Shown here in pieces: positions 45,727 to 64,000 of a DNA stretch of 64,000 nt. The notes under the pieces are model-generated. The model was not told the DNA's origin. It ran no database searches and saw only the letters and a list, made by a program, of their open reading frames with translations. Source of the DNA: Sneathiella chungangensis (GTDB lineage Bacteria > Pseudomonadota > Alphaproteobacteria > Sneathiellales > Sneathiellaceae). The translations under genes and the position numbers were made by a program. The stretch is from assembly GCF_009882935.1 (NCBI RefSeq), contig NZ_WTVA01000004.1, forward strand, positions 369,117 through 433,116, read 5' to 3'. The first letter of the stretch is position 1; each line of letters opens with the position of its first letter.

Positions 45727-45803
45727 TGCCTTGCCTGGTGTGATAGGTAGGTTGCTGGTTGTTGTGCAATGCAACATTAAAAGGTGAGGGGTGGTGGTTA
45801 GAT

Positions 45804-46790
45804 ATGAAGAACCTGAAAAAATGGGGTTTTATCCTGATCCTGATCGCGGTGTTCGCGGGGGGCGCATTTTTCTACTGGAAAAATGAGATTGCCGGCCGGT
45901 TGCCCGACGGCATTGTCATGAGCAACGGGCGTATTGAGGCAACCCAGATCAATATCGCCGCGAAACTGCCGGGCCGACTCGAAGAGGTGCTCGTCAACGA
46001 AGGCGAGATGGTGGAGCCGGGCCAGGTTCTCGCACGGCTTGATGCAAAGGAAGTGATGGCGCAGCTCAGAAGCGCGGAGGCGGAAGTGCGCCGTCTTGAG
46101 CGTAGCCGGGAAGAAACAGAAGCGGCGGTCAAAAGCAGCCGGAGCCAGTTGAAGCTCGCCGAACAGATGCTGGCGCGTGCGAAAAAGCTGGTGAAGGATA
46201 ATTTTACCAGCAAGGAAACCGTCGAGCAGCGGACAACGGAATTTCAGGCGGCGGAGGCCAACTACACCTCGGCGCTTGCCCGGGTCGAGGAAACCGGCGA
46301 GCAAATCAACGCGGCCCGGGAGCAGGTTATCCAGATCGAGGCGCAACTTGACGATCTCGTACTGCGGGCGCCGCTGCGCGGGCGGATACAATACCGCCTC
46401 GTGGAACCGGGCGAAGTCGTTGCGGCGGGCGGAAACCTGTTCACGCTTCTGAACCTTGCCGATGTTTACATGACCGTCTTTCTTCCCGCCGCCGATGCGG
46501 GCCGACTGGCGCTCGGCAGTGAGGCCCGGCTAATTCTCGATCCAGTTCCTGAATATGTTATTCCGGCAAAAGTAACCTTTGTCGCCGCCGAGGCGCAGTT
46601 TACGCCCCGCACTGTGGAAACAGCAGACGAGCGGGAAAAGCTGATGTTCCGGGTCAAAATCAGCATTGATCCCGAGCTTCTCCGGAAATACGAGGATCGG
46701 GTGAAGGCCGGGGTGAGGGGCGATGCCTATGTGATGCTGCCGCCTGCCGAAAGCTGGCCGGAATTCCTGCAAGTCAAGCTTCCGGAATGA
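45804..46790 (+). CDS. HlyD-family adaptor of an ABC exporter (YhiI/YbhG-like)
   Basis: This is a 328-residue periplasmic membrane-fusion protein from ATG 45804; the frame's earlier start has no ribosome site. The anchor helix WGFILILIAVFAGGAFFYW is followed by SNGRIEATQINIAAKLPGRL, the lipoyl half-motif with VNEGEMVEPGQVLARLD, and a long coiled-coil hairpin (about residues 80-180). The second lipoyl half has LRAPLRGRIQYRLVEPGEVVAAG. It overlaps the ABC gene by four bases. The three-gene order matches E. coli yhiI-rbbA-yhhJ, so it links this transporter to an outer-membrane channel. Confidence 0.92.
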   Translation: MKNLKKWGFILILIAVFAGGAFFYWKNEIAGRLPDGIVMSNGRIEATQINIAAKLPGRLEEVLVNEGEMVEPGQVLARLDAKEVMAQLRSAEAEVRRLERSREETEAAVKSSRSQLKLAEQMLARAKKLVKDNFTSKETVEQRTTEFQAAEANYTSALARVEETGEQINAAREQVIQIEAQLDDLVLRAPLRGRIQYRLVEPGEVVAAGGNLFTLLNLADVYMTVFLPAADAGRLALGSEARLILDPVPEYVIPAKVTFVAAEAQFTPRTVETADEREKLMFRVKISIDPELLRKYEDRVKAGVRGDAYVMLPPAESWPEFLQVKLPE

Positions 46791-49543: not shown

Positions 49544-49545
49544 TC

Positions 49546-50676
49546 ATGTTCAGGCGGATTAGCAATATATATCGTCTGGGTGTGAAGGAACTTTATAGTG
49601 TCCGGTCGGATCCAGTGCTGGTTTTCCTGTTGATCTGGGCCTTTACCTTCATGGTCTACGAGGTTGCGGAAAATGCAAAGATAGAGGTTGTGAACGCCGC
49701 TGTCGGTGTGCTGGACGAAGATCAGTCGGCACTGTCGCGGCGGATTATCGACAGTATTCTGCCGCCCTATTTCAAACCGGCGGAGGAAATCGATGGTCGC
49801 GACATGGACCGACTTCTCGATAACGGCGACTATATCTTCATCATCGATATCCCGCCGCGGTTTGAATCAGATCTGCTGGCGGGAAAACGTCCGGAAATCC
49901 AGGTCAATGTCGATGCCACCGCGATGGCGATCGCCGGCAATGGATCCTCCTATCTCGCGAGTATCATCAATTCCGAAGTGTCGAATTATCTCGATGCGGA
50001 TGGCGGAGAGTCGAGCCTGCCTGTCGATCTGATTGTTCGCGTTGCCTTCAATCCGAATGTGAACTCGACCTGGTTCATGTCGGTGATGGCGATTATCAAC
50101 AATGTGACATTGCTTGCCATGATCCTGACCGGGGCCGCCCTGATACGGGAGCGCGAGCATGGCACAATTGAACATCTGCTCGTCACGCCGGTGACCAGCG
50201 TGGACATCATGATTTCCAAAGTCTGGTCGAATGGCCTGATTATCATTGTCGTGGCGTCGGTGTCGCTGGTGATGGTTGTCGAAGGGATCCTTCAGGTGCC
50301 GATCTTTGGATCGAAGCCGCTTTTTATTCTCGGAGCCGTCGTTTACCTGTTTTCGGTAACGTCTTTCGGTATATTGCTGGCGACCCTAGCGGGTTCGATG
50401 CCGCAGTTCGGCCTTCTGGTTGTCCTGACCTATATCGTTATGAACCTTCTTTCGGGGAGCACGACGCCGCTTGAAAGCATGCCTGAGTGGCTGCAATTCG
50501 TCATGCAGTTCGCTCCCTCGACCCATTATGTGAGTTTTTCGCAGAGCGTCCTTTTCCGTGGGGCGGGGATCAATATCGTCTGGCCGGAACTGTTTGCCAT
50601 GGCCGGTATTGGCGCCGCTTACTTTCTTGCGGCCTTCTCTCGCTTTCGCAAAGTCCTCGACAGTTCGTCGGGATAA
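49546..50676 (+). CDS. ABC-2 type permease (YhhJ-like)
   Basis: This is a 376-residue membrane subunit. The ATG at 49546 is eight bases after AGGAG and is preferred to the GTG at 49540, which overlaps the preceding stop too closely to use that site. It shows an N-terminal helix (PVLVFLLIWAFTFMVYE), a long periplasmic loop (about residues 45-170), and five C-terminal helices with GAALIREREHGTIEHLLVTPVTS, the linker typical of ABC-2 permeases of the YhhJ/YbhR family. It pairs with the permease half of the RbbA-like fusion. A new transcript starts downstream. Confidence 0.92.
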   Translation: MFRRISNIYRLGVKELYSVRSDPVLVFLLIWAFTFMVYEVAENAKIEVVNAAVGVLDEDQSALSRRIIDSILPPYFKPAEEIDGRDMDRLLDNGDYIFIIDIPPRFESDLLAGKRPEIQVNVDATAMAIAGNGSSYLASIINSEVSNYLDADGGESSLPVDLIVRVAFNPNVNSTWFMSVMAIINNVTLLAMILTGAALIREREHGTIEHLLVTPVTSVDIMISKVWSNGLIIIVVASVSLVMVVEGILQVPIFGSKPLFILGAVVYLFSVTSFGILLATLAGSMPQFGLLVVLTYIVMNLLSGSTTPLESMPEWLQFVMQFAPSTHYVSFSQSVLFRGAGINIVWPELFAMAGIGAAYFLAAFSRFRKVLDSSSG

Positions 50677-50818
50677 AATCCCACAAAACTTTCGGTTGAT
50701 CAGAAAAAACTTGGTTTCTCACTGGCATTTCAGTCCTTTGGGTTGTAAATCTTTGGGCAGCCGGAAAGCCCGACCGGAGAATCGGGCGTCGAATTTCAGT
50801 CTTTGGAGGAACGATAGT

Positions 50819-51226
50819 ATGAAAAAGTTTTTTAATCTTGCAGTGGTGGCGGTGCTGGCGGTTATGCTCAGCGGCTGCTTCGGGCGTGTTCAGCCTGTTT
50901 ACAATGCCGAGGCAAACCCGATTCCGGTCAAACTACAGGAAACGTCGGTGGAAAATATCGGCAATATCATCCAGACATCTGCCATCAACCGTGGCTGGAC
51001 CGTCAGTGATGTTTCGCCGGGCAAGATGAAGGCGACCCTGCATAGCCGGACGCATGTTGCCGTTATCGAAATTACCTATTCCAAGACGGATTATTCGATC
51101 AATTATGTTTCCAGCGTTGATTTGCTGTATGATGGGGCGAATATTCACCGGAACTACAATAAATGGATCCGGACCCTGCAAAATGATATCAACAAGAACC
51201 TGAACGTCGCCGCCCTCAAAGTTTGA
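50819..51226 (+). CDS. Small lipoprotein ahead of the aryl polyene genes
   Basis: This is a 135-residue lipoprotein from the ATG at 50819, with GGAGG nine bases upstream. The signal MKKFFNLAVVAVLAVMLSGC has a lipobox with Cys20. The mature part begins FGRVQPVYNAEANPIPVK and continues with a small alpha-beta domain (IIQTSAINRGWTVSDVSPGKMKATLHSR), like many short envelope lipoproteins. It is ten bases from the first ape gene, so it is probably translated from the same transcript, but it is not a known aryl polyene component. The 142-base gap before it must hold the operon promoter; a near-repeat of TTTCAGTCCTTTGG is the only thing that stands out. Confidence 0.8.
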   Translation: MKKFFNLAVVAVLAVMLSGCFGRVQPVYNAEANPIPVKLQETSVENIGNIIQTSAINRGWTVSDVSPGKMKATLHSRTHVAVIEITYSKTDYSINYVSSVDLLYDGANIHRNYNKWIRTLQNDINKNLNVAALKV

Positions 51227-51236
51227 GGATTACTTG

Positions 51237-51971
51237 ATGGAGACGGGAGTTTCTTTCTCAGTTCAGCGATGGTCCGCCTGGGCACCATCGTTGGACAGTC
51301 CTGACGCCTGGCAGCGTTGGGCCGAAGGCGGCGCCCTCTTGCCGGATCAGGATGGGCTGCCAGATGTGAGGGATTTGCCGGCCGGGCTTCGCCGGCGTCT
51401 TTCCCGGCTGGGGAAAATTGCCCTAAGGGTCGCCATGGATATCGGCACTGATGAAAAGCCCCGGGTCGTTTTCTCATCCCGCAACGGCAATGTCACGCAG
51501 ATGCTCCAACTGCTGGAGAGCCTTGCGGTGGACGAGCCTATTTCCCCCACCGGATTTGGCATGTCGGTCCATAACTCGCTCGCGGGGATGCTGTCGATCA
51601 TGACGAAAAACCGGGAGGCGCAAACGGCGATTGCCGCGGGAGGAGAGAGCCTTTGCCTGGGCTTGATCGAGGCGACGGCCTGGCTCCGTGAAGATCCGTC
51701 GGCGCCGGTACTGCTGCTGCATGCGGACGAGACGCTTCCCGAATTCTATTCACCTTTTCGGGATCCGGACGTCCCGGTATGCGCGCTGGCGCTCCTGCTC
51801 GCACCGGCGGACGAGGGGTCGGGGGGTTATCGCTTCGGTTTCTCCGGCACGTCGACACGGGCGGCAGCGGGGGATCCGCTGCAAAGCTTCATCCGGTTCC
51901 TGCTCCGGGGCGAAATTGACTGGAACTGGTCCGGCGCGCAAGGTAACTGGTGGTGTCAGCGCCATGCTTGA
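51237..51971 (+). CDS. apeC: Aryl polyene ketosynthase chain-length factor (ApeC-like)
   Basis: This is a 244-residue beta-ketoacyl synthase N-terminal-like protein, far shorter than a full ketosynthase (about 400). The ketosynthase fold is visible in VVFSSRNGNVTQMLQLLESL and FGMSVHNSLAGMLSIM, but the place of the catalytic cysteine is TAIAAGGES, so it cannot condense. In aryl polyene systems ApeC pairs with the active ketosynthase ApeO, as the chain-length factor does in type II PKS. ATG 51237 is nine bases after GAGG. It overlaps the acyltransferase gene by eight bases. Confidence 0.87.
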   Translation: METGVSFSVQRWSAWAPSLDSPDAWQRWAEGGALLPDQDGLPDVRDLPAGLRRRLSRLGKIALRVAMDIGTDEKPRVVFSSRNGNVTQMLQLLESLAVDEPISPTGFGMSVHNSLAGMLSIMTKNREAQTAIAAGGESLCLGLIEATAWLREDPSAPVLLLHADETLPEFYSPFRDPDVPVCALALLLAPADEGSGGYRFGFSGTSTRAAAGDPLQSFIRFLLRGEIDWNWSGAQGNWWCQRHA

Positions 51972-52737
51972 CCGTCTCAACTATATCTGGCGGCTGATCG
52001 GTACGGGGATCGCTTTCGCAAGCTTTGGCCTCGGCGGGCTGTTCATGAGTGTCTTCATTTTTATCCCTATCGCGCTGTTTACGAAAGACGAGGCGACGCG
52101 TATCCGGCGTGTCCGGGGTGTGATCTACCGGGCGTTTCGCGTATTCGTCTATTTCCTGCGCGTTGGCGGCATTATCGATTCCCGCTTTCACGAAACGGAG
52201 AAGCTAAAAGACGTGCGTGGTGCACTGATCGTAGCCAATCATCCGTCGCTGCTTGATACGGTCTTCCTGATGTCGCGGATGCCCGATGTCCAATGCATCG
52301 TCAAGCATGAGCTCTGGGACAATCCCTATCTTGGCGGCGTGATGCGGGCGGCGGGTTATATCCGCAACGATGGTGACGCCGAAATGATGCTCAGACAATG
52401 TGAAAAGGCCCTCGGCAGCGGGCAGAACATTCTGGTTTTCCCCGAAGGAACCAGATCGGTGCCCGGGCAGGCGCTCAAGTTCCAGCGCGGGTTTGCGAAT
52501 ATCGCCACCCATTTCAATGCGCCGATACAGCTGGTTACGATAAAATGCGAGCCGTCAACTCTGACGAAAGGAAGTCCATGGTATGCAATTCCGCCACGTC
52601 AGGCGCGCTTTGACATTACATTTAACGAACAACTGGACATGGCGGATTATCTAAGGCATGAACCCAGATCATTAAAGGTTCGAAAGCTCACGCGTGAGCT
52701 GGAGCAATATTATATTGGAAAACTCTGCAATGAATGA
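51964..52737 (+). CDS. apeD: 1-acyl-glycerol-3-phosphate acyltransferase family protein (ApeD-like)
   Basis: This is a 257-residue PlsC-type membrane acyltransferase. After two N-terminal helices (IGTGIAFASFGLGGLFMSVFIFIPI) it has the catalytic HX4D motif NHPSLLDT and FPEGTRS. In aryl polyene clusters such a protein is thought to place a polyene or fatty acyl chain on a glycerol or sugar-lipid anchor. The start lies inside the apeC stop (8-base overlap) and the end overlaps the first carrier gene. Confidence 0.87.
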   Translation: MLDRLNYIWRLIGTGIAFASFGLGGLFMSVFIFIPIALFTKDEATRIRRVRGVIYRAFRVFVYFLRVGGIIDSRFHETEKLKDVRGALIVANHPSLLDTVFLMSRMPDVQCIVKHELWDNPYLGGVMRAAGYIRNDGDAEMMLRQCEKALGSGQNILVFPEGTRSVPGQALKFQRGFANIATHFNAPIQLVTIKCEPSTLTKGSPWYAIPPRQARFDITFNEQLDMADYLRHEPRSLKVRKLTRELEQYYIGKLCNE

Positions 52738-52999
52738 ATTTGAACTTGAAATTAAAAAACTGGTGATCAAGACCCTCAATCTTGAGGACATCACTCCTGA
52801 AGAAATAGATAGCGAGGAGCGGCTGTTCGTCGATGGGCTCGGGCTCGATTCAATCGATGCGCTGGAGCTCGGTGTTGCCATCCAGAAAACCTATGGCATC
52901 AAGATTAACGCCAAGAATGAAGATTTGAAGGACCATTTTGCCTCTGTCCGCAGCCTCGCCCAATTTATTACTTCCGAAAGGAAGGAGATGGACGCATGA
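52730..52999 (+). CDS. apeE: Acyl carrier protein (ApeE-like)
   Basis: This is an 89-residue carrier protein with the phosphopantetheine attachment serine in GLGLDSIDALELG (about residue 43). The acidic helix 2 and the short helix 3 are typical. It starts at the ATG at 52730, eight bases before the apeD stop, and overlaps the second carrier by four bases. Two carriers in tandem are a hallmark of aryl polyene, flexirubin and xanthomonadin clusters. Confidence 0.9.
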   Translation: MNEFELEIKKLVIKTLNLEDITPEEIDSEERLFVDGLGLDSIDALELGVAIQKTYGIKINAKNEDLKDHFASVRSLAQFITSERKEMDA

Positions 53000-53241
53000 G
53001 CCGCGATGAAATTTATGACAAGCTCCGCGAGTATCTTGAGGATATGTTCGAAGTGCCGCCGGAGCTCATCACGCCGGATGCCCAGCTTTATGACGATCTG
53101 GATCTCGACAGCATTGATGCCGTTGATCTGGTGGTCAAGTTGCAGGATCTGACAGGAAAGAAAATCCCGCCTGACGAGTTTCGCACGGTGCGTTCCGTGG
53201 GGGATGTGGTGGACCGGGTTCATGCCCTTTTGGCGGCGTAA
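52996..53241 (+). CDS. apeF: Acyl carrier protein (ApeF-like)
   Basis: This is an 81-residue carrier protein with the phosphopantetheine serine in DDLDLDSIDAVDLVVKLQ (about residue 39). It would carry the growing polyene chain. It overlaps the preceding carrier by four bases and the following membrane protein gene by 20. Confidence 0.9.
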   Translation: MSRDEIYDKLREYLEDMFEVPPELITPDAQLYDDLDLDSIDAVDLVVKLQDLTGKKIPPDEFRTVRSVGDVVDRVHALLAA

Positions 53242-53800
53242 ACTGCGGCCGCTGGACCTTCTGCTTGTCCTGATCAGCCTGGCCTATCCTTTCGTTGTGT
53301 ATTTCGGCCTGATGAAATTCTCGCCCTTGACGGTCGGACTGGCCCTCGTGATTTTCCTGATCCTGCGCCTCGTTCTTCAGCGTCAGCGGCGAGAACGGCG
53401 GCCGGAAATCGGGATTTACCTGATCGTTCTGGCGGCAATTATCCTGCTGCTGTCCGTTGACGAGATGCTGGCGATCAAGGCGTATCCTGTGCTGATCAGC
53501 CTCTCCTTCGCGACCCTGTTCGGCTATTCGCTGATTTTTCCGCCGCCGATCATTGAACGCTTTGCCCGGATGACGGAAGGAGAACTCGACGCCCACGCGC
53601 AGCGCTATACCCGCCATGTGACAGAGGCCTGGGTGGTATTCTTCCTGCTGAACGCCGCTGTGTCGGTCTGGACGGCGCTCTATGCGAGCCTTGGCGTCTG
53701 GACGCTTTACAACGGCTTCGTTTCATATGTCTTGATCGGCCTGATGCTCGGCGGTGAATTCATTCTTCGCCAGTTCGTCAAACGCAGAAAAGTGAGTTGA
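53222..53800 (+). CDS. apeG: Aryl polyene cluster membrane protein (COG4648, ApeG-like)
   Basis: This is a 192-residue integral membrane protein with about five helices (LDLLLVLISLAYPFVVYFGL, GIYLIVLAAIILLLS, AYPVLISLSFATLFGY, AWVVFFLLNAAVSVWTALYASL, FVSYVLIGLMLGGEF). It belongs to the COG4648 membrane proteins found in aryl polyene and xanthomonadin clusters. Its function is unknown; a role in moving or anchoring the lipid-linked product is possible. I use ATG 53222 (PFWRRKLR follows), overlapping the second carrier gene. Confidence 0.85.
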   Translation: MPFWRRKLRPLDLLLVLISLAYPFVVYFGLMKFSPLTVGLALVIFLILRLVLQRQRRERRPEIGIYLIVLAAIILLLSVDEMLAIKAYPVLISLSFATLFGYSLIFPPPIIERFARMTEGELDAHAQRYTRHVTEAWVVFFLLNAAVSVWTALYASLGVWTLYNGFVSYVLIGLMLGGEFILRQFVKRRKVS

Positions 53801-53803
53801 GAA

Positions 53804-55171
53804 TTGTACATTCCCGTATCGAAACTGCTTGCTTCCGACAGGTCTGGGGCTGCCGCTGTCGCCCGTATCGCCAGGCAAGATGTCACCTTCGCCGAATTCA
53901 AGGCGGAAGTCGCAGATTTACGTGCGCGGATAAAGAAAAGGGGCGTCACGCAAGTGGTTCTTGCGACGGAAAGCAGTTATGCCTTCGCAACTGGCATGCT
54001 TGCGGCCTTTGACGCCGGGTGTCGCGTTACCGTGCCGCCGAATGCTCTGCCGGGCATGCTTGCGCGGTTCGTCACGCCGGAGTGCCCACTTCTCTCGGAC
54101 ATCAAGGACGAGGCCCATAGTGACGACCACATTCTCATCGACGGTGCGAAGGCGGCGGAGGCGAGTTTTCGCGAGCTCGATCCTGACGCCTGCTCTCTTG
54201 ATTTCTATACCTCGGGCTCCACGGGTGAGCCCAAACGCGTGCCAAAGAGCCTCGCGCAAATCGAAAATGAGCTGACGGTTCTCGACCAGGTATTTGGTGC
54301 GCGGCTCGGCGCCGCCGCGACACTCGGCACTGTCAGCCATCAGCATATCTTCGGCCTCTACTTCAAATGCCTCCTGCCACTCTCGGAGGGAAGGCTGTTT
54401 TTCCCGGAAACCTTCGAGATATGGGAGGAATTGCTGGCCTTCGCGCCGCCGGGCGCCTGTATCGTCTCAAGCCCCGCCCATTTGACCCGTATACCGCCGC
54501 TCGATCCCCTGCCGACGTCCGCACAGGCGCCCGTGATTTTCACGGCGGGCGGGCCGCTGCCATTTGAGGCCGCGCAAACCTCTGCCTGGATGTTCGGGCC
54601 GCTTCCAACCGAGATTTACGGCAGTACCGAAACGGGGGGGATCGCCCATCGCCAGCAGGAACGCGCCACAACACCCTTCCGGCCGCTTCCCGGAATGGAG
54701 ACACGCGTTGATGAGCAGGGGAGTCTCTGGGTAAAGTCGAACTACACGGACAACGGTGACTGGGACAAGACAAATGATATTGCCGAGCTTTTCCCTGATG
54801 GCAGTTTTCTCCTCGCCGGTCGCGCCAACCAGTTCGTCAAGATAGAGGGCAAACGGATATCCCTTGCCGAAATCGAAAAATTTCTGACGGCATCAGACCT
54901 CGTGAAAGACGCGGCGGTGCTCGTACTGACCTCGCCGCGCGACACGCTTGCGGCGGTTGCGGAATTGACCGAGGAAGGATGGAGGCGCCATGCGGAGATC
55001 GGCGCTTTCCGGCTCGGCCGGTTCTTGCGCAAGGAGCTGTCGCCCAATCTCGAGAATGCTGCGTTGCCGCGCCGCTGGCGGTTTGTCGACCGGCTTCCGG
55101 TCAATTCGCAAGGCAAGCGCCAGCAAACCGCGCTTCATGAACTGTTTGCAGGTGGTGAAGGGGCGGACTAA
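53804..55171 (+). CDS. apeH: AMP-ligase activating the aryl starter (ApeH-like)
   Basis: This is a 455-residue adenylate-forming enzyme that should activate an aromatic acid, such as 4-hydroxybenzoate or a coumarate, and load it on a carrier. Motifs are LDFYTSGSTGEPKRVPKSL, IYGSTETGGIAHRQ, LAGRANQFVKIEGKRISLAEIE and PVNSQGKRQ with the catalytic lysine. It is shorter than CoA ligases at the N terminus, as expected for this family. The start is the TTG at 53804, since no ATG or GTG occurs near; it follows apeG by three bases and no strong ribosome site is seen, so coupling is likely. Confidence 0.88.
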   Translation: MYIPVSKLLASDRSGAAAVARIARQDVTFAEFKAEVADLRARIKKRGVTQVVLATESSYAFATGMLAAFDAGCRVTVPPNALPGMLARFVTPECPLLSDIKDEAHSDDHILIDGAKAAEASFRELDPDACSLDFYTSGSTGEPKRVPKSLAQIENELTVLDQVFGARLGAAATLGTVSHQHIFGLYFKCLLPLSEGRLFFPETFEIWEELLAFAPPGACIVSSPAHLTRIPPLDPLPTSAQAPVIFTAGGPLPFEAAQTSAWMFGPLPTEIYGSTETGGIAHRQQERATTPFRPLPGMETRVDEQGSLWVKSNYTDNGDWDKTNDIAELFPDGSFLLAGRANQFVKIEGKRISLAEIEKFLTASDLVKDAAVLVLTSPRDTLAAVAELTEEGWRRHAEIGAFRLGRFLRKELSPNLENAALPRRWRFVDRLPVNSQGKRQQTALHELFAGGEGAD

Positions 55172-55174
55172 ACT

Positions 55175-55564
55175 GTGCTGGTCATGGAAAAATCTACCGA
55201 AATCACCTGGCCCGGCAGCCCGACGGAACCGGAAATCCGTTCCGAACGGAGTGACGGCGATATTGTTTCGCTTGAAATTTTCGTTGACGAAAAACTGTTC
55301 CAGTTTCAGGGCCATTTCCCGGGCGAGCCGGTTCTGCCCGGCGTCGCCCAGATCGACTGGGCGGCAAAATGCGCCGTCCGTTATTTCGGGGTTCCGGCGA
55401 GATTTTCGCGTATCGGCCAGCTTAAATTTTCGAAATTGATTGTCGCCAATTCGGTTCTGTCGCTCCGTCTTGAATATAAGCGGGACAAAGGCCGCATCAT
55501 CTTTTCCTTCTCGGAAGGGGGGGAGGTATGCTCGTCCGGTTTTTTTGAACTGGCGGCGCAATGA
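55175..55564 (+). CDS. apeI: Dehydratase subunit, FabZ-like (ApeI-like)
   Basis: This is a small hotdog-fold protein, 129 residues from GTG 55175 (an ATG at 55184 is the alternative). The catalytic segment GHFPGEPVLPGVAQIDWAAK matches FabZ/FabA-type 3-hydroxyacyl-ACP dehydratases, with the histidine intact. In aryl polyene synthesis ApeI acts together with ApeP to dehydrate the beta-hydroxyacyl carrier, creating each double bond. It overlaps apeJ by four bases. Confidence 0.85.
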   Translation: MLVMEKSTEITWPGSPTEPEIRSERSDGDIVSLEIFVDEKLFQFQGHFPGEPVLPGVAQIDWAAKCAVRYFGVPARFSRIGQLKFSKLIVANSVLSLRLEYKRDKGRIIFSFSEGGEVCSSGFFELAAQ

Positions 55565-57261
55565 GTTTTTCGCTTGCGGCGGTTGTGCCCACTTATAATC
55601 ATTATCGTCATATCGACAGGGTAATAGACGCGCTCCGCGCCGAAGGCCTGCGGATTTTCATCATTGATGACGGCAGCGCGGAACCAGCGAAATCCGAAAT
55701 TGCGAAGTTTGACGATCCGGCGCGGGGCATCAGTCTTCACCGGCTGGAAAAGAACGGCGGAAAAGGGGCGGCCGTCATGACCGGCTTTCGCCTAGCGGCG
55801 GCCGAAGGTTATACCCATGTCATTCAGATCGACGCGGACGGGCAACATGATCTGGACGCCTTGCCCGCGCTCATCCAGCTCGCGAAAATCCACCCGGATA
55901 CGCTGATAAGCGGTCAGCCCGTTTATGATGCGTCCATTCCGACATCGCGGAAGATCGCCCGCTGGATCACCCATGCCTGGGTTTGGGTGGAAACCCTGTC
56001 GATGGCGATTACCGACAGCATGTGCGGCTATCGCATATATCCGCTTGCCGCGGCGCTTGCGGTGATCGAGACGGAAACCGTCGGCCATTATATGGATTTT
56101 GATACGGAAATCATGGTGCGGATGAACTGGCGGGGGACGCCTGTCCGGATGCTGCCGATCCGGGTGACCTATCCGGAGGACAACATCTCGAATTTCCGCC
56201 TCGGCGCCGATAACTGGCTGATTACGAAAATGCATACGCGGCTCGTTTTTGGCATGCTGGCGCGATTGCCGCAGGTACTCCGCAACCGGCCCGTGGCCAA
56301 AAGGGGAGTCCGCCATTGGGGGCGCATTAATGAGCGCGGGGCGACAATCGGCCTCAAGACACTTTTCGCCTTCTACCGGATCGCCGGAAAACGGATTTGC
56401 TGGTATGCGATGCAGCCTGTCCTGCTCTATTTCTTCGCAACCGGCGCGACGCAGCGTCGGGCCTCAAAGGAATATTGGCGGAGGCTTTACGCCGCGAGGG
56501 GGGAGGCGCGGGACGTCAGCCTCTGCCAGGTCTGGCTGCACTACCGGTCATTCGGGGCAATGGCGCTTGATCGGCTGGCAGGCTGGCTTGGCGATATTCG
56601 GCCGGCTGACTTTCTCGGTGACGATCTTTCCACCCTCGATACGATCGCCCGGAGAAAACAGGGCATCATGGTCGTCACCTCGCATCTGGGGAATGTCGAC
56701 GTCCTCCGTGCTATTGGCGCCGCCCGCGGTATCGATAATGTGACGGTCTTCGCCCATACCCGTAACGCCGTCAAGTTCAGCCGCATGCTGAGCGATGCCA
56801 ATCCCGCGGCCACCGTTGACATTATGGAGGTGGAGGATATCGGCCCCGCGACGCTGATTGAACTTGAGGAGAAACTGCAAGCCGGCAACTGGATCGTCAT
56901 CGCCGGCGATCGTATTCCGCTCACCGGCGGCAAGCGGATCAGGTTGATGGAATTCCTGGGCGCCTCGGCGCCGTTTTCCGAAGGTGCCTGGATTATCGCG
57001 GCGCTTTTGCGGTGCCCAGTCTATCTATTGCACTGCCTGAGTGAAGAGGGGAAATACCGCATCCTGTTCAGCAAGATCGCGGACAGGGTGGAGCGGGGGC
57101 GGGCACCACGGGACGGCCTTGCCGCGCCGATGACCGCCTATGTCCGGAAACTTGAGGAAAGCTGCCAAAAATATCCGGAACAATGGTACAATTTTTATGA
57201 TTTCTGGGCAAATCCCGACGACGGGCGAAAACAGGAAGAAAGGCATAGTGAAAAACCATGA
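55561..57261 (+). CDS. apeJ: Glycosyltransferase family 2 fused to lipid acyltransferase (ApeJ-like)
   Basis: This is a 566-residue two-domain protein. The N-terminal GT-A glycosyltransferase (about residues 1-240) has AAVVPTYNHYRHI, FIIDDGSAE and the metal-binding QIDADGQHD. The C-terminal domain (about 280-560) is an LpxL/HtrB-type acyltransferase with its HX4D motif in TSHLGNVDVLR and GDRIPLTGGKR. This fusion is characteristic of aryl polyene clusters and probably attaches sugar and acyl groups to the lipid-anchored pigment. It overlaps both neighbours by four bases. Confidence 0.92.
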   Translation: MSFSLAAVVPTYNHYRHIDRVIDALRAEGLRIFIIDDGSAEPAKSEIAKFDDPARGISLHRLEKNGGKGAAVMTGFRLAAAEGYTHVIQIDADGQHDLDALPALIQLAKIHPDTLISGQPVYDASIPTSRKIARWITHAWVWVETLSMAITDSMCGYRIYPLAAALAVIETETVGHYMDFDTEIMVRMNWRGTPVRMLPIRVTYPEDNISNFRLGADNWLITKMHTRLVFGMLARLPQVLRNRPVAKRGVRHWGRINERGATIGLKTLFAFYRIAGKRICWYAMQPVLLYFFATGATQRRASKEYWRRLYAARGEARDVSLCQVWLHYRSFGAMALDRLAGWLGDIRPADFLGDDLSTLDTIARRKQGIMVVTSHLGNVDVLRAIGAARGIDNVTVFAHTRNAVKFSRMLSDANPAATVDIMEVEDIGPATLIELEEKLQAGNWIVIAGDRIPLTGGKRIRLMEFLGASAPFSEGAWIIAALLRCPVYLLHCLSEEGKYRILFSKIADRVERGRAPRDGLAAPMTAYVRKLEESCQKYPEQWYNFYDFWANPDDGRKQEERHSEKP

Positions 57262-57668
57262 TATCCGCCGAAGTTGACGTGAAATGCCAGTTCTATGATC
57301 TCGACCCGATGGGAATCGCCTGGCACGGAAATTATGCCCGCTTCTTCGAACAGGCCCGATGTGCCCTGCTTGACGTCATCGATTATAATTATGAACAGAT
57401 GAACGATAGCGGCTATGCCTGGCCTATTGTCGATATGCGGATAAAATATATCCGCCCGATCCGTTTCGGTCAGGTCGTGGCGGTGGCGGCGACATTGGCC
57501 GAATATGAAAACCGCCTGAAAATCAATTATCAGATCAATGACCGTGAAACCGGCGAGAAACTAACCCGGGGATTTACAATTCAGGTGGCGATTGATAAGA
57601 ACGCGGGGGAAATGCTATTCCAGTCCCCACCAATACTTTACCGAAAAGTTGAAGCTCTGTTGTGCTAA
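57258..57668 (+). CDS. apeK: Acyl-ACP/CoA thioesterase, 4-hydroxybenzoyl-CoA type (ApeK-like)
   Basis: This is a 136-residue hotdog thioesterase. The catalytic motif YDLDPMGIAWHGNYARFFEQAR contains the aspartate of 4-hydroxybenzoyl-CoA thioesterases, and IKYIRPIRFGQVV follows. In aryl polyene clusters it is an editing or release thioesterase. It overlaps apeJ by four bases and apeL by seven. Confidence 0.9.
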   Translation: MISAEVDVKCQFYDLDPMGIAWHGNYARFFEQARCALLDVIDYNYEQMNDSGYAWPIVDMRIKYIRPIRFGQVVAVAATLAEYENRLKINYQINDRETGEKLTRGFTIQVAIDKNAGEMLFQSPPILYRKVEALLC

Positions 57669-58270
57669 GAACGATCCGTCTGTTAATCATTATCGTCATG
57701 GCCGCCGCCATATTTCCGGCCCAGGCCGCACCGGTGGCGCTGAAGGAGGGCGAAGGCCTGATGGGGCGCTTTCAACAGGCCCGGTATTTGCGCGGATTCG
57801 ATAAACCCATCCTGTCAGAAGGCGCGTTCTATTTGCTGCCGAAATCAGCCTTGATCTGGCAGACAGAAAAGCCGTTCTTCAGCCGCATGGTCATTGACGA
57901 AACCGGCTTGAGCCAGGCGCTGAAAGGCGCGGAGGTGACCCGTCTCAGTTTCAAGCAGTTCCCGGGGTTCAAGCTGTTGCGCGACACCTTCGAAAACAGC
58001 CTTGGTGGCAACTGGGCGCCGCTTGAGGAGATGGCGGGCGCGAAATTGCTGCCGGTGGACGGCGGATATACGCTGCGCTTCGCTCCCAAGGCAAGTGGCC
58101 TCAACCTTCCTTTTGCCTATCTCAATTTTGAAATCGATGATTTCCTGAAAACAGTCGAGATCGTGAAAAGCAACGGTGACCGGGACGTGATCACCTTTTC
58201 CGACCAACGGGTGGCGTCGGCTGAGGATATTAACCAGGCGGCCCAGACAAACCGGGAAAAGCAGCCGTGA
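57662..58270 (+). CDS. apeL: LolA-like outer-membrane lipoprotein carrier (ApeL-like)
   Basis: This is a 202-residue secreted protein starting with GTG at 57662, with a signal peptide (LLIIIVMAAAIFPAQAAP). The mature part follows the LolA-like beta-barrel pattern (RFQQARYLRGFDKPILSEGAFYLLPKSALIWQTEKPF). It would carry the lipidated polyene across the periplasm to the outer membrane. It sits between the thioesterase and the MMPL exporter and overlaps the latter by four bases (GTGA). Confidence 0.88.
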   Translation: MLRTIRLLIIIVMAAAIFPAQAAPVALKEGEGLMGRFQQARYLRGFDKPILSEGAFYLLPKSALIWQTEKPFFSRMVIDETGLSQALKGAEVTRLSFKQFPGFKLLRDTFENSLGGNWAPLEEMAGAKLLPVDGGYTLRFAPKASGLNLPFAYLNFEIDDFLKTVEIVKSNGDRDVITFSDQRVASAEDINQAAQTNREKQP

Positions 58271-60591
58271 GCCGGGTCGGGCTCTGGGTATATGTCTCGC
58301 TGCTCTGCGCCGCCATTGCGGTTATCGGATGGCGGCTTCAGGATGGCCTGCCGCTTGATACCAATATCGTCGCGATGTTGCCGCAGTCGGACCGGGCGGA
58401 ATGGGTCGCCCGCGCCGAAGCGGCTGAAAGAACACAGGGAACGGATCAGCTTATTGCACTTGTCGGTCACGCTGATTTCGAAACGGCGCGGGCCGCGGCG
58501 CTGGAACTCGGACAGGCGCTCGTCGACGGGGGCATTCTTAAATCCGCGCAGTCCGACACGGGACTGTCGACACTCAAGCATCTTAATGAAATCCTGTTCC
58601 CGCATCGCACCGAACTTCTTTCGGAGGGGGATCGGCGGCTTCTCGCCACGGGGCAGGAGCAGGTCCTCATCGACCGGGCGCTGGTACAGATCTTATCCCC
58701 CCTGTCCCTCGCAGACGCGGAGCTGATCCGCCGCGACCCGTTTCTCCTGCTTCCCAATTACCTCTCGGCAAGCACGGAGAATCGCTCGAAGCTTCTAAGC
58801 CGGGCGAATGTGCTGGCGGTTGAGGAAAAAGGGAAATGGTATGTCCTGGTCCGCGGCAAGCTGGTCGGGAATCCGTTCGATAAGGGGTTCCAGACCCGGA
58901 CGCTGCAGGTTTTCGAAGATACTGCGCGTAAACTCGGTAAATCTCATGGCGATATAACGATCTTGAAGACGGGCGCGGTTTTCTATGGAGAGCATGCCTA
59001 TCGCCAGGCGGAGAATGAAGCCGGGTTTATCGGCATGATTTCGCTGATCGGGATTATCGTCCTCAATTTTTTCGTTTTCCGAAGCTTCCAGCCGCTGGCC
59101 CTCAGTCTGCTCGCCATCGCTTCGGGGATCGCCGGTGGCCTCGCGGTTACGCTTCTCTTTTTTGGAACCCTGCAACTTCTCGCGCTCGTCTTCGGGGCTG
59201 GCCTGATTGGTATTTCGGTTGACTATGCCTTTCATTATTTTTGCGAACGTTTCAAAAAGGAAAACTCTGTTCCCGCCGCGCGCGCCCGAGCGATCCGGTC
59301 CGGGTTGACTCTCGGTCTGGTAAGTTCCGTGCTTGGCTTCATAACCTTGGCGCTGACGCCGTTTCCCGGGCTTCAGCAGATTGCCCTGTTTTCGGCATCG
59401 GGGCTGACGCTCGCCTATCTCACCGTGCTGTATGCTTTCCCTTATCTCGACCGCGCGAAGCCATTTACCCATGGCGATAAATTCCTCGCGTTCTCCATGC
59501 TGCTTCATCATTTTTGGTGGCGTCCGGAGCATCGGAAATGGCGGTATCTTCTCGTCAGCCTTTTGGTGCTTGCCGGGCTTTTTGGCGCCACGCGGATTGT
59601 CGTCGATGACGATGTCCGCCGGCTGCAGTCGTTGCCACAGGCCTTGCAGGCGGAGGAACAGGCGATCCGGCTCCTCGCCGGGATCGAGAACCAGACACAT
59701 CGTTTCTTCGTCCGGGGCTCCAATACGGAGGAGGTCCTGCAAACAGAAGAGGCGCTGGCGATCGATCTTGCCGCGTTGCGCGCAAGCGGGAAGATCGGCA
59801 ATTACCGGATGATATCGCAATTCGTACCGTCGCGGGTGCGGCAGCTTGAAAATCAAAAGCTGATCGACGAGACATTAATGCCGAAATTGGATGAGCAGAT
59901 GGCGGTCATCGGTCTCTCCGGGGCTCCACCTTACCATCGCGCGGACGGTGTTTTAACGCTCGACCAGCTCAGCGCCGCCGCGTTGCCGGGCCTGTTTTCA
60001 CAGCTTCGCATTTACACGACCCCCGGGATCGTCGTCCATGCGGTGACGCTTTCCGGGGTCAATGACAGAACGGCACTATCCGCTCTCGCCGAGAAATCGG
60101 AAAACATCGCCCTGATCAGCCAAGCTGACAGCCTTAGCAAGACCTTCGGCGCCTATCGTCTTCGCGCGTTGATCATGCTCGCAATTGCCTATTGCGTGGT
60201 CTGGGTTTTCCTTTCCCTGCGCTATGGAATTTTCGGGTCTATCAAGGTTATGATGCCGTCGATGAGCGCGGTGTTGCTGGCGCCCTGCCTCCTTGCGCTG
60301 ACCGGTGAGCCCTTTACTTTTTTCAATGCCATGTCGCTGATGCTGATATTCGCCATCGGCCTTGACTATGCGCTTTTCAACCGAGAATCCTCGGGGGAGC
60401 GGCAGCGGCGGGCGATGCTGGCGAACGGACTTTCGACCATATCGACCCTGCTCGCCTTCGGCCTGCTCTCTTTAAGCGAAACCTTCGCAATACATGCCTT
60501 CGGGATTACGATCCTGGTCGGGATCACGCTTGCCTATGTGCTGGCGCCCCTGGCGTCTGACCTTGACCATCCGATGACGGAGCCTTTGTAG
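58267..60591 (+). CDS. apeM: MMPL/RND-type exporter (ApeM-like)
   Basis: This is a 774-residue membrane exporter of the RND/MMPL superfamily. One N-terminal helix is followed by a large periplasmic domain, then helix bundles near residues 255-400 (IGIIVLNFFVFRSF, FGAGLIGISVDYAFHYFCE with the typical GxxxDY motif), a second periplasmic domain and a second bundle (MLIFAIGLDYALFNRE). Duplicated halves with GxxxDY in both are seen. It probably moves the aryl polyene lipid out of the inner membrane to the ApeL carrier. GTG start overlapping apeL. Confidence 0.92.
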   Translation: MSRVGLWVYVSLLCAAIAVIGWRLQDGLPLDTNIVAMLPQSDRAEWVARAEAAERTQGTDQLIALVGHADFETARAAALELGQALVDGGILKSAQSDTGLSTLKHLNEILFPHRTELLSEGDRRLLATGQEQVLIDRALVQILSPLSLADAELIRRDPFLLLPNYLSASTENRSKLLSRANVLAVEEKGKWYVLVRGKLVGNPFDKGFQTRTLQVFEDTARKLGKSHGDITILKTGAVFYGEHAYRQAENEAGFIGMISLIGIIVLNFFVFRSFQPLALSLLAIASGIAGGLAVTLLFFGTLQLLALVFGAGLIGISVDYAFHYFCERFKKENSVPAARARAIRSGLTLGLVSSVLGFITLALTPFPGLQQIALFSASGLTLAYLTVLYAFPYLDRAKPFTHGDKFLAFSMLLHHFWWRPEHRKWRYLLVSLLVLAGLFGATRIVVDDDVRRLQSLPQALQAEEQAIRLLAGIENQTHRFFVRGSNTEEVLQTEEALAIDLAALRASGKIGNYRMISQFVPSRVRQLENQKLIDETLMPKLDEQMAVIGLSGAPPYHRADGVLTLDQLSAAALPGLFSQLRIYTTPGIVVHAVTLSGVNDRTALSALAEKSENIALISQADSLSKTFGAYRLRALIMLAIAYCVVWVFLSLRYGIFGSIKVMMPSMSAVLLAPCLLALTGEPFTFFNAMSLMLIFAIGLDYALFNRESSGERQRRAMLANGLSTISTLLAFGLLSLSETFAIHAFGITILVGITLAYVLAPLASDLDHPMTEPL

Positions 60592-60592
60592 C

Positions 60593-61825
60593 ATGGTGAA
60601 CAAGAACGAGCGGTTTGATGTCGTCATTATCGGTGCCGGTCCGGCGGGTGCGCTCGCCGCGAAGCGGCTGGTGCAGGAGGGGCTCAAGGTCGCGATCCTC
60701 GAGAAAAGCGTCTTTCCGCGCTTCGTGATTGGCGAGAGCCTTCTGCCGCAATCGATGGTGTTTCTGGAAAAAGCCGGGCTTCTGGCGAAAGTTGCCGCCG
60801 CTGGCTTTCAGCACAAGAACGGCGCCAACTTTTCCGATGATCGGCGCTTCAGTTCAATCGACTTTTCGGAAAAATTCACGGAAGGTCCCGCGACCACCTA
60901 TCAGGTGTCACGCGATAAATTCGATATGCTGCTGGCGACCGCCGCCAAAGACGCCGGCGCGGACCTCCGCTTTCAGCAGGATGTGACCGATGTCCGCTTC
61001 GACGGCGCGGGTGTGACTGTTCTCGGGACGGGCCCGGAGGGCGATTTCGAATTGTCGGCACGTTTTCTGGTGGACGCGAGCGGCTACGGACGGGTCTTGC
61101 CGCGATTGATGAAGCTGGACACGCCCTCCGATTTTCCGGTCCGGCATGCGTTGTTCACCCATGTCGAGGACCAGCTGGCGGCGCGGGACTTTGACCGCAA
61201 TAAGATCCTGATCACCGTTCATCCGACATGCCGTGACATCTGGTTCTGGCTTATTCCATTTGCCGATGGGATATCCTCCATCGGTGCCGTTGTCCCACCC
61301 GAACAGCTGGCAAATTATCCAGGCGATAAGTCCGAAAAACTATGGGCGATAATCCGCGAGTCGGCGGATTTAACGACGCTTCTGCAGGGCGCGCGGGAGA
61401 TACGTTCCGTCGGTGAAATTTCTGGCTACTCGACGAAAGTCTCCCGCATGGCCGGGCCGCAATTTGCGCTTCTCGGCAATGCCGGGGAATTTCTGGACCC
61501 GGTCTTTTCCTCCGGCGTAACCATCGCCTTCAAGTCCGCGGATCTGCTGATCGACCCGTTGATGCGCCAGCTGAATGGCGAGGCGGTTGATTGGGAGGCG
61601 GATTTCGTCGCGCCGCTTAAAATCGGGGTGGATTGCTTTCGCATCTTCGTCGAGGCCTGGTATCGCGGTGATCTGCAGGAAATTATCTTCAATCCGCCGG
61701 GTGATGCCAATCCGATCAAGCGGATGATTGTGGCGATCCTGGCGGGCTATGCCTGGGATGAGAAGAACCCCTTCGTCACGCAGGGTCGCCGGTATCTCGA
61801 TATGGTGGCGTTGCAATGCTCGTAA
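60593..61825 (+). CDS. Flavin-dependent halogenase-like oxidoreductase in the aryl polyene operon
   Basis: This is a 410-residue FAD protein with GAGPAG at residues 14-19, GESLLP at 47-52 and FQHKNGA around Lys75. The motif WFWLIP at 217-222 fits WxWxIP, a signature of flavin-dependent halogenases, and FxxKxGA resembles the lysine region of halogenases that act on carrier-bound substrates. The FAD-binding DPVFSSGV region follows (GNAGEFLDPVFSSGVTIA). It may chlorinate or brominate the aryl ring or polyene, which would match xanthomonadins and flexirubins. Some related hydroxylases and reductases share these motifs, so a non-halogenating role remains possible. It is inserted between apeM and apeN, one base after the apeM stop, and overlaps apeN by ten bases. 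Confidence 0.8.
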   Translation: MVNKNERFDVVIIGAGPAGALAAKRLVQEGLKVAILEKSVFPRFVIGESLLPQSMVFLEKAGLLAKVAAAGFQHKNGANFSDDRRFSSIDFSEKFTEGPATTYQVSRDKFDMLLATAAKDAGADLRFQQDVTDVRFDGAGVTVLGTGPEGDFELSARFLVDASGYGRVLPRLMKLDTPSDFPVRHALFTHVEDQLAARDFDRNKILITVHPTCRDIWFWLIPFADGISSIGAVVPPEQLANYPGDKSEKLWAIIRESADLTTLLQGAREIRSVGEISGYSTKVSRMAGPQFALLGNAGEFLDPVFSSGVTIAFKSADLLIDPLMRQLNGEAVDWEADFVAPLKIGVDCFRIFVEAWYRGDLQEIIFNPPGDANPIKRMIVAILAGYAWDEKNPFVTQGRRYLDMVALQCS

Positions 61826-62322
61826 GATGTCTGCTTGTGTTGATCGCGGTCATCGGCATCGCCGGTTGCGCGACGGAGTCGGCGCGGGAGTTGGAGGTCG
61901 CTCCCTGGCGCCTGCCGGAGGGGCCGCCGCGGGAAGTCGTGCAGATCCTGAATGGACATTATGGGGACAAGGCGTTCGCACTCCAGGTGCGCCTCAGCAT
62001 GTCAGAAGAAAAAATGCTTGTTGCCGGGCTTGATTCGCTTGGTCGCCGCGCCTTTGATATCCTCTGGGACGAAACAGGCGTTCGCGCGGGCAAGGCGGAC
62101 TGGGTGTCGGAGGACCTGAACGCCGCCGATATCCTGAAGGTGATCGTCGCGACATACTGGCCCGAGGACGACCCGATGCAGGCTTATGTGAGGGACAGGG
62201 CGAAGGACCTCGAGATCAGCTATCAGAGCGAACGGGCGAATGCCTGGAATGAAACCGTTGAAATCCGCAATCCCAGGTCGGGTTACGAAATGACAATCAT
62301 TTCCTACGAACTGAAGCAATGA
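61816..62322 (+). CDS. apeN: DUF3261 lipoprotein (ApeN-like)
   Basis: This is a 168-residue lipoprotein. The signal LVRCLLVLIAVIGIAGC ends in a lipobox (IAGC). The mature protein fits DUF3261: REVVQILNGHYGDKAFALQVRLSMSEEKMLVAGLDSLGRRAFDILWDETG and later ILKVIVATYWPEDD. DUF3261 lipoproteins occur regularly in aryl polyene operons and probably act in outer-membrane assembly with ApeL and ApeM, by analogy with LolB. The letter N is assigned by position. Confidence 0.8.
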   Translation: MLVRCLLVLIAVIGIAGCATESARELEVAPWRLPEGPPREVVQILNGHYGDKAFALQVRLSMSEEKMLVAGLDSLGRRAFDILWDETGVRAGKADWVSEDLNAADILKVIVATYWPEDDPMQAYVRDRAKDLEISYQSERANAWNETVEIRNPRSGYEMTIISYELKQ

Positions 62323-63500
62323 TGATGACCTTTTATCTTAATGCGCTCGGCCTGATCAATGCGCTGGGACAGGGCAAAGAGGAAATTAGCCGCCGCCTGT
62401 TTACCGGTGATACCGGCGGTATGACGCGTAAAGACGGGTATCTTGCGGATCGTGCCGTTATGGCGGGGGCGATTGAGGGGGAGTTGCCGCCGATTTCCGC
62501 GGACTTAGTCCGTTATGACAGCCGGAACAACCGGATGCTGCTTGCCGCATTGTTGGAGATCGAGCCGGATATCAGGGCGGCAATCGCAAAATACGGCGCC
62601 GAGCGCGTCGCCGTGATCCTTGGCACCAGCACGTCCGGTATCGGCGATAATGAACCGGGAATTGCAGAGAAGGTTAAAGGCGGTTCCTTCCCGGAAGGTT
62701 TTGACTATGACCGGCAGGACAATGCGTCGCTCGCCTATTTCGTCCGCAGCTACTTCGGTCTCACCGGGCTGGCCATGACGATCTCAACCGCCTGCACGTC
62801 GAGCGCCAAAACGCTTGCATCGGCGCGGCGGATGATTGCGGCGGGCTTTTGCGATGCGGCGATTGTCGGCGGGGCGGACACGCTCTGCCGCCTGACGATG
62901 AACGGTTTCGCGTCGCTTGATCTGGTTTCCGGGGACCTCTGCAACCCGTTCAGCCAAAACAGGGGCGGCATTAATATCGGTGAGGGGGCCGCCGTTTTCT
63001 TGATGAGCCGGGAGAAATCGGGCGTGCGCGTCGCCGGAATTGGCGAGACGTCCGACGCCTATCACATGAGCACGCCGGATCCGGATGGAAGAGGCGCCTT
63101 CACCGCGATGGAGCGGGCATTGACCGAAAGCGGCCTTGCGCCGAAAGAGATCGCCTATCTCAATCTTCACGGCACGGCGACGGAATTGAATGACAGCATG
63201 GAAGCAAAGGCCGTCTACGAACTACTGGGCCCGGTTCCCTGCAGTTCAACCAAACCCTTGACGGGCCATACCCTCGGCGCGGCCGGCGCAACCGAGCTTG
63301 CGTTCCTTTATCTCGCTCTTGGATCGGAGGACGGACTGCTGCCGCCCCATGCCTGGGATGGCGCAACGGATCCGTCTTTACCTCCCCTCCATCTGGTGGC
63401 ACCGGGAGAAAGAGTGCCGGGCGCCCGGGCGATGATGACGAATTCCTTTGCTTTCGGCGGCAACAATATTAGCGTTATCCTCAGCAAAGAGAGCGATTGA
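62319..63500 (+). CDS. apeO: Beta-ketoacyl-ACP synthase (ApeO-like)
   Basis: This is the catalytic ketosynthase, 393 residues. The active cysteine lies in TISTACTSSAKTLASARR, the two histidines in LNLHGTATELNDSMEAKA and KPLTGHTLGAAGATE, so the Cys-His-His triad is complete. GINIGEGAAVFL is also present. Paired with the cysteine-less ApeC it should extend the polyene by malonyl units. The frame begins with three ATG codons; it overlaps apeN by four bases. Confidence 0.93.
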   Translation: MMMTFYLNALGLINALGQGKEEISRRLFTGDTGGMTRKDGYLADRAVMAGAIEGELPPISADLVRYDSRNNRMLLAALLEIEPDIRAAIAKYGAERVAVILGTSTSGIGDNEPGIAEKVKGGSFPEGFDYDRQDNASLAYFVRSYFGLTGLAMTISTACTSSAKTLASARRMIAAGFCDAAIVGGADTLCRLTMNGFASLDLVSGDLCNPFSQNRGGINIGEGAAVFLMSREKSGVRVAGIGETSDAYHMSTPDPDGRGAFTAMERALTESGLAPKEIAYLNLHGTATELNDSMEAKAVYELLGPVPCSSTKPLTGHTLGAAGATELAFLYLALGSEDGLLPPHAWDGATDPSLPPLHLVAPGERVPGARAMMTNSFAFGGNNISVILSKESD

Positions 63501-63919
63501 TGCAGCCTTGTCTCTACGATATCACCGAAATACTCTATCACGCGCCGCCGATGATCCTGATTGACCGGATCGAGGCCTACGATGATACGACAGTGATGTC
63601 GTCGGTTGAAATTACCGAGACCTCTCCCTTTATGGCGGAGGGAGAGGTGCCCGCCTATATCAGTATTGAATATATGGCCCAGTCGATCGCCGCCTATAGC
63701 GGGATAAAGGCGCGCAACGCCGGTGGAGAGGTGAAAATCGGTTATCTGGTCAGCACCCGGAGCATGACGCTCGGCTGCCCGGCCTTCCATCCAGGAGACA
63801 GGCTGAGCGTGACCGTTCACCTTGTTTATGACGAGACGCCCATGGCGGTCTTTGATTGCGCGATAACCCGGAATGAAAAGCTTGTCGCTGAAGCGCGGCT
63901 TAATGTATATCAACCCTGA
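63500..63919 (+). CDS. apeP: Dehydratase subunit, hotdog fold (ApeP-like)
   Basis: This is a 139-residue 3-hydroxyacyl-carrier dehydratase-like protein. It starts YDITEILYHAPPMILIDRIEAYD, and the helix region is AYISIEYMAQSIAAYSGIKA with the glutamate of the YISIEYMAQ motif. It pairs with ApeI as a heterodimeric dehydratase in aryl polyene systems. The ATG at 63500 overlaps the apeO stop by one base (TGATG). Confidence 0.88.
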   Translation: MQPCLYDITEILYHAPPMILIDRIEAYDDTTVMSSVEITETSPFMAEGEVPAYISIEYMAQSIAAYSGIKARNAGGEVKIGYLVSTRSMTLGCPAFHPGDRLSVTVHLVYDETPMAVFDCAITRNEKLVAEARLNVYQP

Positions 63920-63937
63920 AATCACAGGTGAGAATAG

Positions 63938-64000
63938 ATGCAAAGAAGAATTCTGGTCACCGGAGCAAGCGGCGGCATTGGCCGGGCGATTGCGCTTCGG
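63938..64000 (+). CDS. apeQ: 3-oxoacyl-ACP reductase (ApeQ-like), 3' cut by window end
   Basis: Only 21 codons are in the window: MQRRILVTGASGGIGRAIAL. The cofactor motif TGASGGIG is that of FabG-type short-chain ketoreductases, which in aryl polyene clusters follow apeP and reduce the beta-keto group. It starts 18 bases after the apeP stop. The rest lies outside the window. Confidence 0.85.
   Translation, partial: MQRRILVTGASGGIGRAIALR

Follow-up and report, generated by a model that had tools for sequence, protein, structure and literature searches.

Published work ranks aryl polyene (APE) gene clusters as the most widespread family of bacterial biosynthetic clusters. Head groups of APEs can carry halogen, and xanthomonadin is a halogenated pigment (PMC8253772). 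Clusters of Xanthomonas contain a halogenase gene and yield pigments with zero to two bromines; in Lysobacter enzymogenes the cluster has no halogenase gene, and no bromine pattern was reported for the pigment (PMC3691225). The arcA gene of Azoarcus bears a halogenase annotation, yet the pigment arcuflavin is C41H52O4 and halogen-free (PMC3949708). Brominated aryl polyene peptides are known from Pseudoalteromonas (PMC7551054), and in Acetobacteraceae the genes associated with APE ketosynthase genes include 'a probable halogenase' (PMC8776678). The type of halogenase gene described below goes without mention in the excerpts of PMC11964084, PMC10286705 and PMC7551054, and our literature search, which covered open-access papers, found none testing it.

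The window (the whole 64,000-nucleotide stretch of Sneathiella chungangensis DNA analysed here) holds a cluster whose core ape genes agree in set and order with those of the published E. coli CFT073 cluster (APE_Ec; gene names in part from PMC8253772). Acyl carrier proteins (ACPs), a ligase, ketosynthases, the dehydratases ApeI and ApeP, a KR, an exporter and Lol-like proteins lie together in one operon (Table 1), in which PF22817 and PF22818 score above their cut-offs, ApeG, ApeL and ApeM are assigned weakly or from position, and the names apeM and apeN are taken from position and homology. Whereas the E. coli APE is tailored by methylation (PMC8253772), a tblastn search with three query sequences found no ApeB-like methyltransferase in the window. 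Between apeM and apeN lies a gene for a flavin-dependent-halogenase-like (FDH-like) protein, which an earlier note on this DNA had described as a 410-residue reading frame belonging to the operon. We confirm both the reading frame and its place: one base separates the apeM stop from the FDH start, the apeN start falls within the last FDH codons to give a 10-base overlap, and the neighbours are recognised as ape genes by Pfam and NCBIfam. The motifs listed in that note are also present, namely GESLLP (residues 47-52), F72-Q-H-K75-N-G-A78 and WFWLIP (217-222), as are GAGPAG (14-19) and F300-L-D-P303-V-F-S306-S-G308.

Table 1. Aryl polyene operon and FDH-like gene of the window, with the basis of each assignment.
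Feature	Position	Strand	Basis or remark
apeA-like small lipoprotein	50819..51226	+	lipobox-like N-terminus; no Pfam match; name from position
apeC-like ketosynthase-like protein	51234..51971	+	PF13723 Ketoacyl-synt_2, 179 bits
apeD-like acyltransferase	51967..52737 (start codon approximate)	+	PF01553, 77 bits
apeE-like acyl carrier protein	52730..52999 (ATG 52730)	+	PF00550 on 52694-52999
apeF-like acyl carrier protein	52996..53241	+	PF00550, 51 bits
apeG-like membrane protein	53204..53800	+	weak PF04279 and VC0807 family, both below cut-off; position
apeH-like AMP-forming ligase	53804..55171	+	PF00501
apeI-like dehydratase	55175..55564	+	PF22818 ApeI-like, 49.6 bits (cut-off 28.5)
apeJ-like glycosyltransferase/acyltransferase	55561..57261	+	PF00535
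apeK-like thioesterase	57258..57668	+	PF13279
apeL-like LolA protein	57662..58270	+	weak PF03548 and weak NCBIfam flexirubin LolA2, both below cut-off
apeM-like RND/MMPL exporter	58267..60591	+	weak HpnN/RND NCBIfam matches; no Pfam family; position conserved
APE-type FDH-like gene	60593..61825	+	ATG to TAA, 410 aa
K75 codon of the FDH-like gene	60815..60817	+	60593 + 74 x 3; lysine position of PltA, 5buk and 3e1t in the alignment
apeN-like DUF3261 protein	61816..62322	+	PF11659, 57.8 bits
apeO ketosynthase	62319..63500	+	NF006618, 503 bits (cut-off 407)
apeP dehydratase	63497..63919	+	PF22817, 57.6 bits (cut-off 27)
apeQ (KR) and apeR (KS)	L007 55-2012, beyond the window end		after apeP

A consensus scan of positions 50500-64000 returned no promoter-like site on the plus strand (both strands together gave 2, against a shuffle mean of 5.5) and 17 terminator-like sites against a shuffle mean of 15.8. 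As for enzymes that might provide the aromatic starter acid, the ape cluster contains no ammonia-lyase match, and the UbiC (chorismate lyase) family has none in the window's genome, in a search that detected the E. coli control. On either side of the operon, two groups of genes were read by eye. Directly upstream on the same strand (45759-50676) are an HlyD-like protein, a double ABC ATPase/permease fusion and an ABC permease, probably a separate exporter; downstream of apeR (L007 3410-9576) are one ORF of BamA/TamA type and a long one resembling TamB, outer-membrane assembly genes adjoining an operon for an outer-membrane pigment.

A GxGxxG FAD site, WxWxIP and FxxPxxSxG are hallmark motifs of FDHs, in whose characterised members the active-site lysine is catalytic, and the window protein has all four. 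The proposal that it is a flavoprotein of the FDH superfamily was borne out by its match to PF04820 (Trp_halogenase; 74.2 bits against a gathering cut-off of 21) and by the PDB, where 3nix was matched over the full length at 1e-96, followed by ChlB4, 5buk (which we take to be Mpy16) and PltA at 3e-40 to 4e-43. When a profile of 40 family rows was searched against the PDB, 14 distinct sequences were found at 1e-20 or better, 12 of them named as halogenase or alkylhalidase, the others being ChlB4, with no function in its name, and 3nix. No NCBIfam cut-off was reached among the 25 models listed of the 69 matching, and the best match among those listed was the CmlS equivalog NF033113, at 138 bits against 900.

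Alignment places K75 on K76 of 5dbj (PltA), K75 of 5buk, K76 of 3e1t and K73 of 3nix, i.e. at the halogenase position, as the earlier note had asked to be checked. Across the family alignment K75 is invariant (78/78 rows), as are W217, W219, I221, P222, F300, P303, S306 and G308. PltA (5dbj), 5buk and ChlB4 (7fco; in alignments only) share the FDH fold family, the lysine, WxWxIP and FxxPxxSxG with the window protein, whereas PltA and 5buk have GD where it has GN. This asparagine, N296, occurs in 78/78 APE-type rows, against an aspartate in 14/14 more distant alphaproteobacterial FDHs, and GN is a diagnostic signature of the APE-type clade, within which W356 and Y357 are also invariant. Because other FDHs have an aspartate at this position, the chemistry of the APE-type proteins could differ from theirs.

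These proteins form a single clade. A tree was computed from 96 rows, among them 78 family rows, 3nix and PltA/5buk, with ChlB4 left out; the 78 family rows and 3nix made up one 79-row clade (100/100) that includes the window protein. The crystallised relative 3nix, presumably from Cytophaga hutchinsonii and so from another phylum than the window's, has in common with the window protein the lysine, the motifs and GN, and is deposited as 'Flavoprotein/dehydrogenase', without a halogenase function. Within the clade, the window's genus groups with most rows of its class (23 rows, 100/94; the same-class row L024 falls outside), and 3nix pairs at 100/94 with an Aureispira (Bacteroidota) protein, both presumed non-proteobacterial. 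The APE-type clade spans several phyla-level groups. Assignment of the window protein to the PltA-type carrier-protein pyrrole halogenases was rejected, PltA and 5buk forming a pair of their own (100/100) apart from the 79-row clade. The branching order among FDH groups is unsure, because long branches meet between the APE-type clade and PltA/5buk. The Aureispira gene, on a plasmid (L167, 9998-11251), is adjoined within a few kb by an MMPL/acyltransferase/methyltransferase fusion and an AMP-binding protein, and the plasmid also has a second FAD oxidoreductase.

The window's genome contains one copy of the FDH gene and four further weak matches. At the family level, the gene was found in 15/25 genomes, all of one genus and including the window's, the 14 others being 66-80% (11 genomes) or 49-51% (3 genomes) identical to it. 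Wider samples, which overlap in some genomes, gave 23 matches at 1e-30 in the class (385 genomes; 9 at 48% identity or more, 14 at 30-36%) and 62 matches in the phylum (398 genomes), 47 of them at 45% identity or more. Using ApeP (PF22817) above its cut-off as the APE marker, which was present in 71 phylum-sample and 19 class-sample genomes, we found the FDH gene in 46/71 and 9/19 of these, respectively, and conversely ApeP in 46/47 and 9/9 carriers of the FDH gene (Fisher p = 9e-41 and 2e-13, both inflated by the related species in the samples). The two genes were no more than 5 kb apart in 9/9 class-sample carriers, and no more than 5 kb apart on one strand in 40/46 phylum-sample carriers; in the other six, all of one family (f203, taken as Vibrio/Vibrionaceae from the tree nearness of one member), the FDH gene was about 14-15 kb from ApeP on the opposite strand. 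Weaker FDHs (29-35% identity) showed no such tie, with ApeP above its cut-off in 1/15 phylum-sample genomes. In a family that is probably of the Enterobacterales (f199), the FDH gene was absent from all 11 APE genomes of the sample.

Gene neighbourhoods gave the same picture. Among 73 loci compared by tblastn, the window included, 47 had the FDH gene, which in 43 stood directly after the ApeM match and before a ketosynthase match; the exceptions were two divergent loci of Vibrio type, one locus without an ApeM match and one without APE genes. In named genomes, an ApeO- or ApeJ-like gene was present within the fetched flank at 75 of the 80 loci examined, these being the best 80 of at least 589 confirmed relatives, and absent from it at L071, L072 (a 4.7-kb contig), L073, L126 and L150. 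As a further observation, in some Burkholderiaceae the FDH gene is separate from APE genes, with no ApeO/ApeJ-like gene within 10 kb (L071, L073, L126 and L150), or is placed past the cluster end (L076 and L142). Broken or short-looking copies were seen at G885:C1 (about 688294-689503, two overlapping pieces), at G584:C1 (1028567-1029580, matching only from residue 72) and in Neisseria gonorrhoeae records of the plasmid collection (H21 and H22, two pieces). At the 65 loci with ApeC visible, a phylogenetically structured sample searched with the three methyltransferase queries, an ApeB-like methyltransferase was present at 2/42 loci with the FDH gene (both f203) against 6/23 without it, which is only suggestive of methyltransferase and halogenase as alternatives.

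Many APE clusters routinely include the FDH gene, and for the window alone its presence is ordinary. Because 46/71 and 9/19 APE genomes carry it, it is no mark of a special operon, and an APE cluster of alphaproteobacteria with a 'probable halogenase' has been published before (PMC8776678). The statement that Vibrio APEs go without a halogenase does not generalise either: in Vibrio fortis the gene is present, divergent, at the opposite end of the APE cluster.

The parallel with xanthomonadin is not one of orthology. In the Xanthomonadaceae-type family (f196, with Pseudoxanthomonas/Stenotrophomonas rows), 73/119 genomes have a match at 1e-15, most of them 32-37% identical to the window protein. 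Fourteen regions with this weaker FDH type, mostly of f196, were inspected, and 13 hold APE-like KR, exporter, glycosyl/acyltransferase or ACP genes, the exception being L281. The lysine is present in 17/17 xanthomonadin-type rows, and an aspartate stands at position 296 in 16/16 that are readable there. In the one region tested, the FDH gene is followed by a chorismatase of the FkbO/Hyg5 family (above the Pfam and below the NCBIfam cut-off), an order that matches the Xanthomonas cluster, in which an ACP, XanB1 ('reductase/halogenase'), XanB2 and an AMP-ligase follow one another and a second gene is also labelled halogenase (PMC3838355); by gene order, the xanthomonadin-type FDH would therefore be XanB1. 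It shares the FDH superfamily, the lysine and an APE-like cluster setting with the window protein, but forms a separate lineage in a quick tree, lies beside a chorismatase in the one region tested and is divergently oriented. XanB1-like orthology of the window protein was rejected on identity, on lineage and on the lack of a chorismatase match in the window's genome, XanB2-like chorismatase having been found in 0/5 genomes, the window's included, by a search that had no positive control. Since the APE-type clade excludes the xanthomonadin-type proteins, the xanthomonadin precedent does not come from an orthologue: the pigment known to carry bromine goes with a halogenase-like lineage other than the window's, with XanB1 as a putative brominating enzyme. 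In sum, the FDH family, operon membership and the lysine of the earlier interpretation are supported, halogenation is a prediction, and the comparisons with xanthomonadin and Vibrio need the corrections given here.

On balance, we consider it probable that the window protein is an APE-type FDH acting as a tailoring enzyme, most likely by halogenating the phenolic head of the APE. The match to Trp_halogenase above its cut-off, the halogenase structures in the PDB and the invariant K75 and motifs argue for this, as do the operon spacing, the co-occurrence with ApeP, far tighter than that of the weaker FDHs, and the published precedent that halogen can be placed on APE head groups (PMC8253772). 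The reading is weakened by the deposition of 3nix, the best structural relative, as a flavoprotein/dehydrogenase, by the NCBIfam scores, by the halogen-free arcuflavin (PMC3949708; arcA being a halogenase gene by annotation), by the asparagine at position 296 and by the lack of a flavin reductase within the ape operon. The FDH gene would be co-expressed with the whole ape operon, and its reduced FAD would come from a flavin reductase whose gene lies outside the operon, for which the window's genome has three candidate Flavin_Reduct homologues. Reduced FAD, O2 and halide would yield hypohalous acid, from which K75 may hand on the halogen in activated form; its target would be the electron-rich 4-hydroxyphenyl head, where the position ortho to the hydroxyl is the probable site. 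The substrate could be bound to the ApeE/ApeF ACPs or be the finished aryl-polyene acyl group, and the predicted product is a mono-halogenated APE lipid, exported via ApeL/M/N. Whether chloride or bromide is used cannot be told from sequence.

The most serious competitor, which we regard as unlikely, is an FAD monooxygenase of halogenase fold that transfers no halogen but hydroxylates the aryl head or the chain or oxidises it in some other way. The wider fold has such non-halogenating relatives, and the window protein scores 103.6 bits with the QhpG and 118 bits with the GG-reductase model of NCBIfam, both below their cut-offs; the dehydrogenase label of 3nix and the invariant GN in place of GD point the same way, as does the naming of the gene on plasmids and megaplasmids, where, in 23 records, it is an 'NAD(P)/FAD-dependent oxidoreductase' in 10 of the 11 that name it, a 'tryptophan 7-halogenase' in one (CP076682, with APE genes around it) and without a listed feature in 12. 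Against this, all 78/78 rows keep the lysine and the four FDH motifs unchanged, and hydroxylation would not obviously need them, given the role of the lysine in characterised FDHs.

Less probable still is an enzyme that halogenates conditionally (depending on halide, reductase or expression) or acts on a minor fraction, leaving the main pigment unhalogenated. Arcuflavin, which shows that an annotated halogenase gene in the cluster does not guarantee a halogenated pigment (PMC3949708), and the range from zero to two bromines in Xanthomonas (PMC3691225) are both consistent with it. In same-genus pairs, however, dN/dS is about 0.06-0.14 for 6/7 (dS > 1, close to saturation; the seventh pair gave no computable value), and this purifying selection, together with retention across a wide phylogenetic distance, speaks for a regular function. 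That an unrelated FAD gene sits in the operon by chance and does not act on the APE is very improbable: the five flanks without an ApeO/ApeJ-like gene, one of them on a short contig, and the single phylum-sample carrier without ApeP weigh little beside ApeP in 46/47 and 9/9 carriers and the fixed position between ApeM and ketosynthase matches in 43/47 loci.

The main interest lies in the family as a whole, a single clade whose FDH residues are invariant, whose GN motif is unusual and for which there is a solved structure. We tentatively suggest, as a possibility that may well not hold, that a large share of APE clusters, the window's among them, carry one ancient single-clade halogenase, marked by the invariant GN and distinct from the xanthomonadin type, and that halogenated APE lipids would be far commoner in the membranes of Gram-negative bacteria than one would gather from the handful of known cases. 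The halogenation question is directly testable, because the family has a solved structure (3nix) and APE-type clusters contain two clearly separate halogenase-like lineages. If the enzyme does halogenate, tailoring of APEs with bromine or chlorine would be frequent in Proteobacteria and no longer a chemotaxonomic oddity seen in Xanthomonas and in producers of flexirubin, and it would be worth re-reading the mass data of APE-producing bacteria for Cl/Br isotope patterns.
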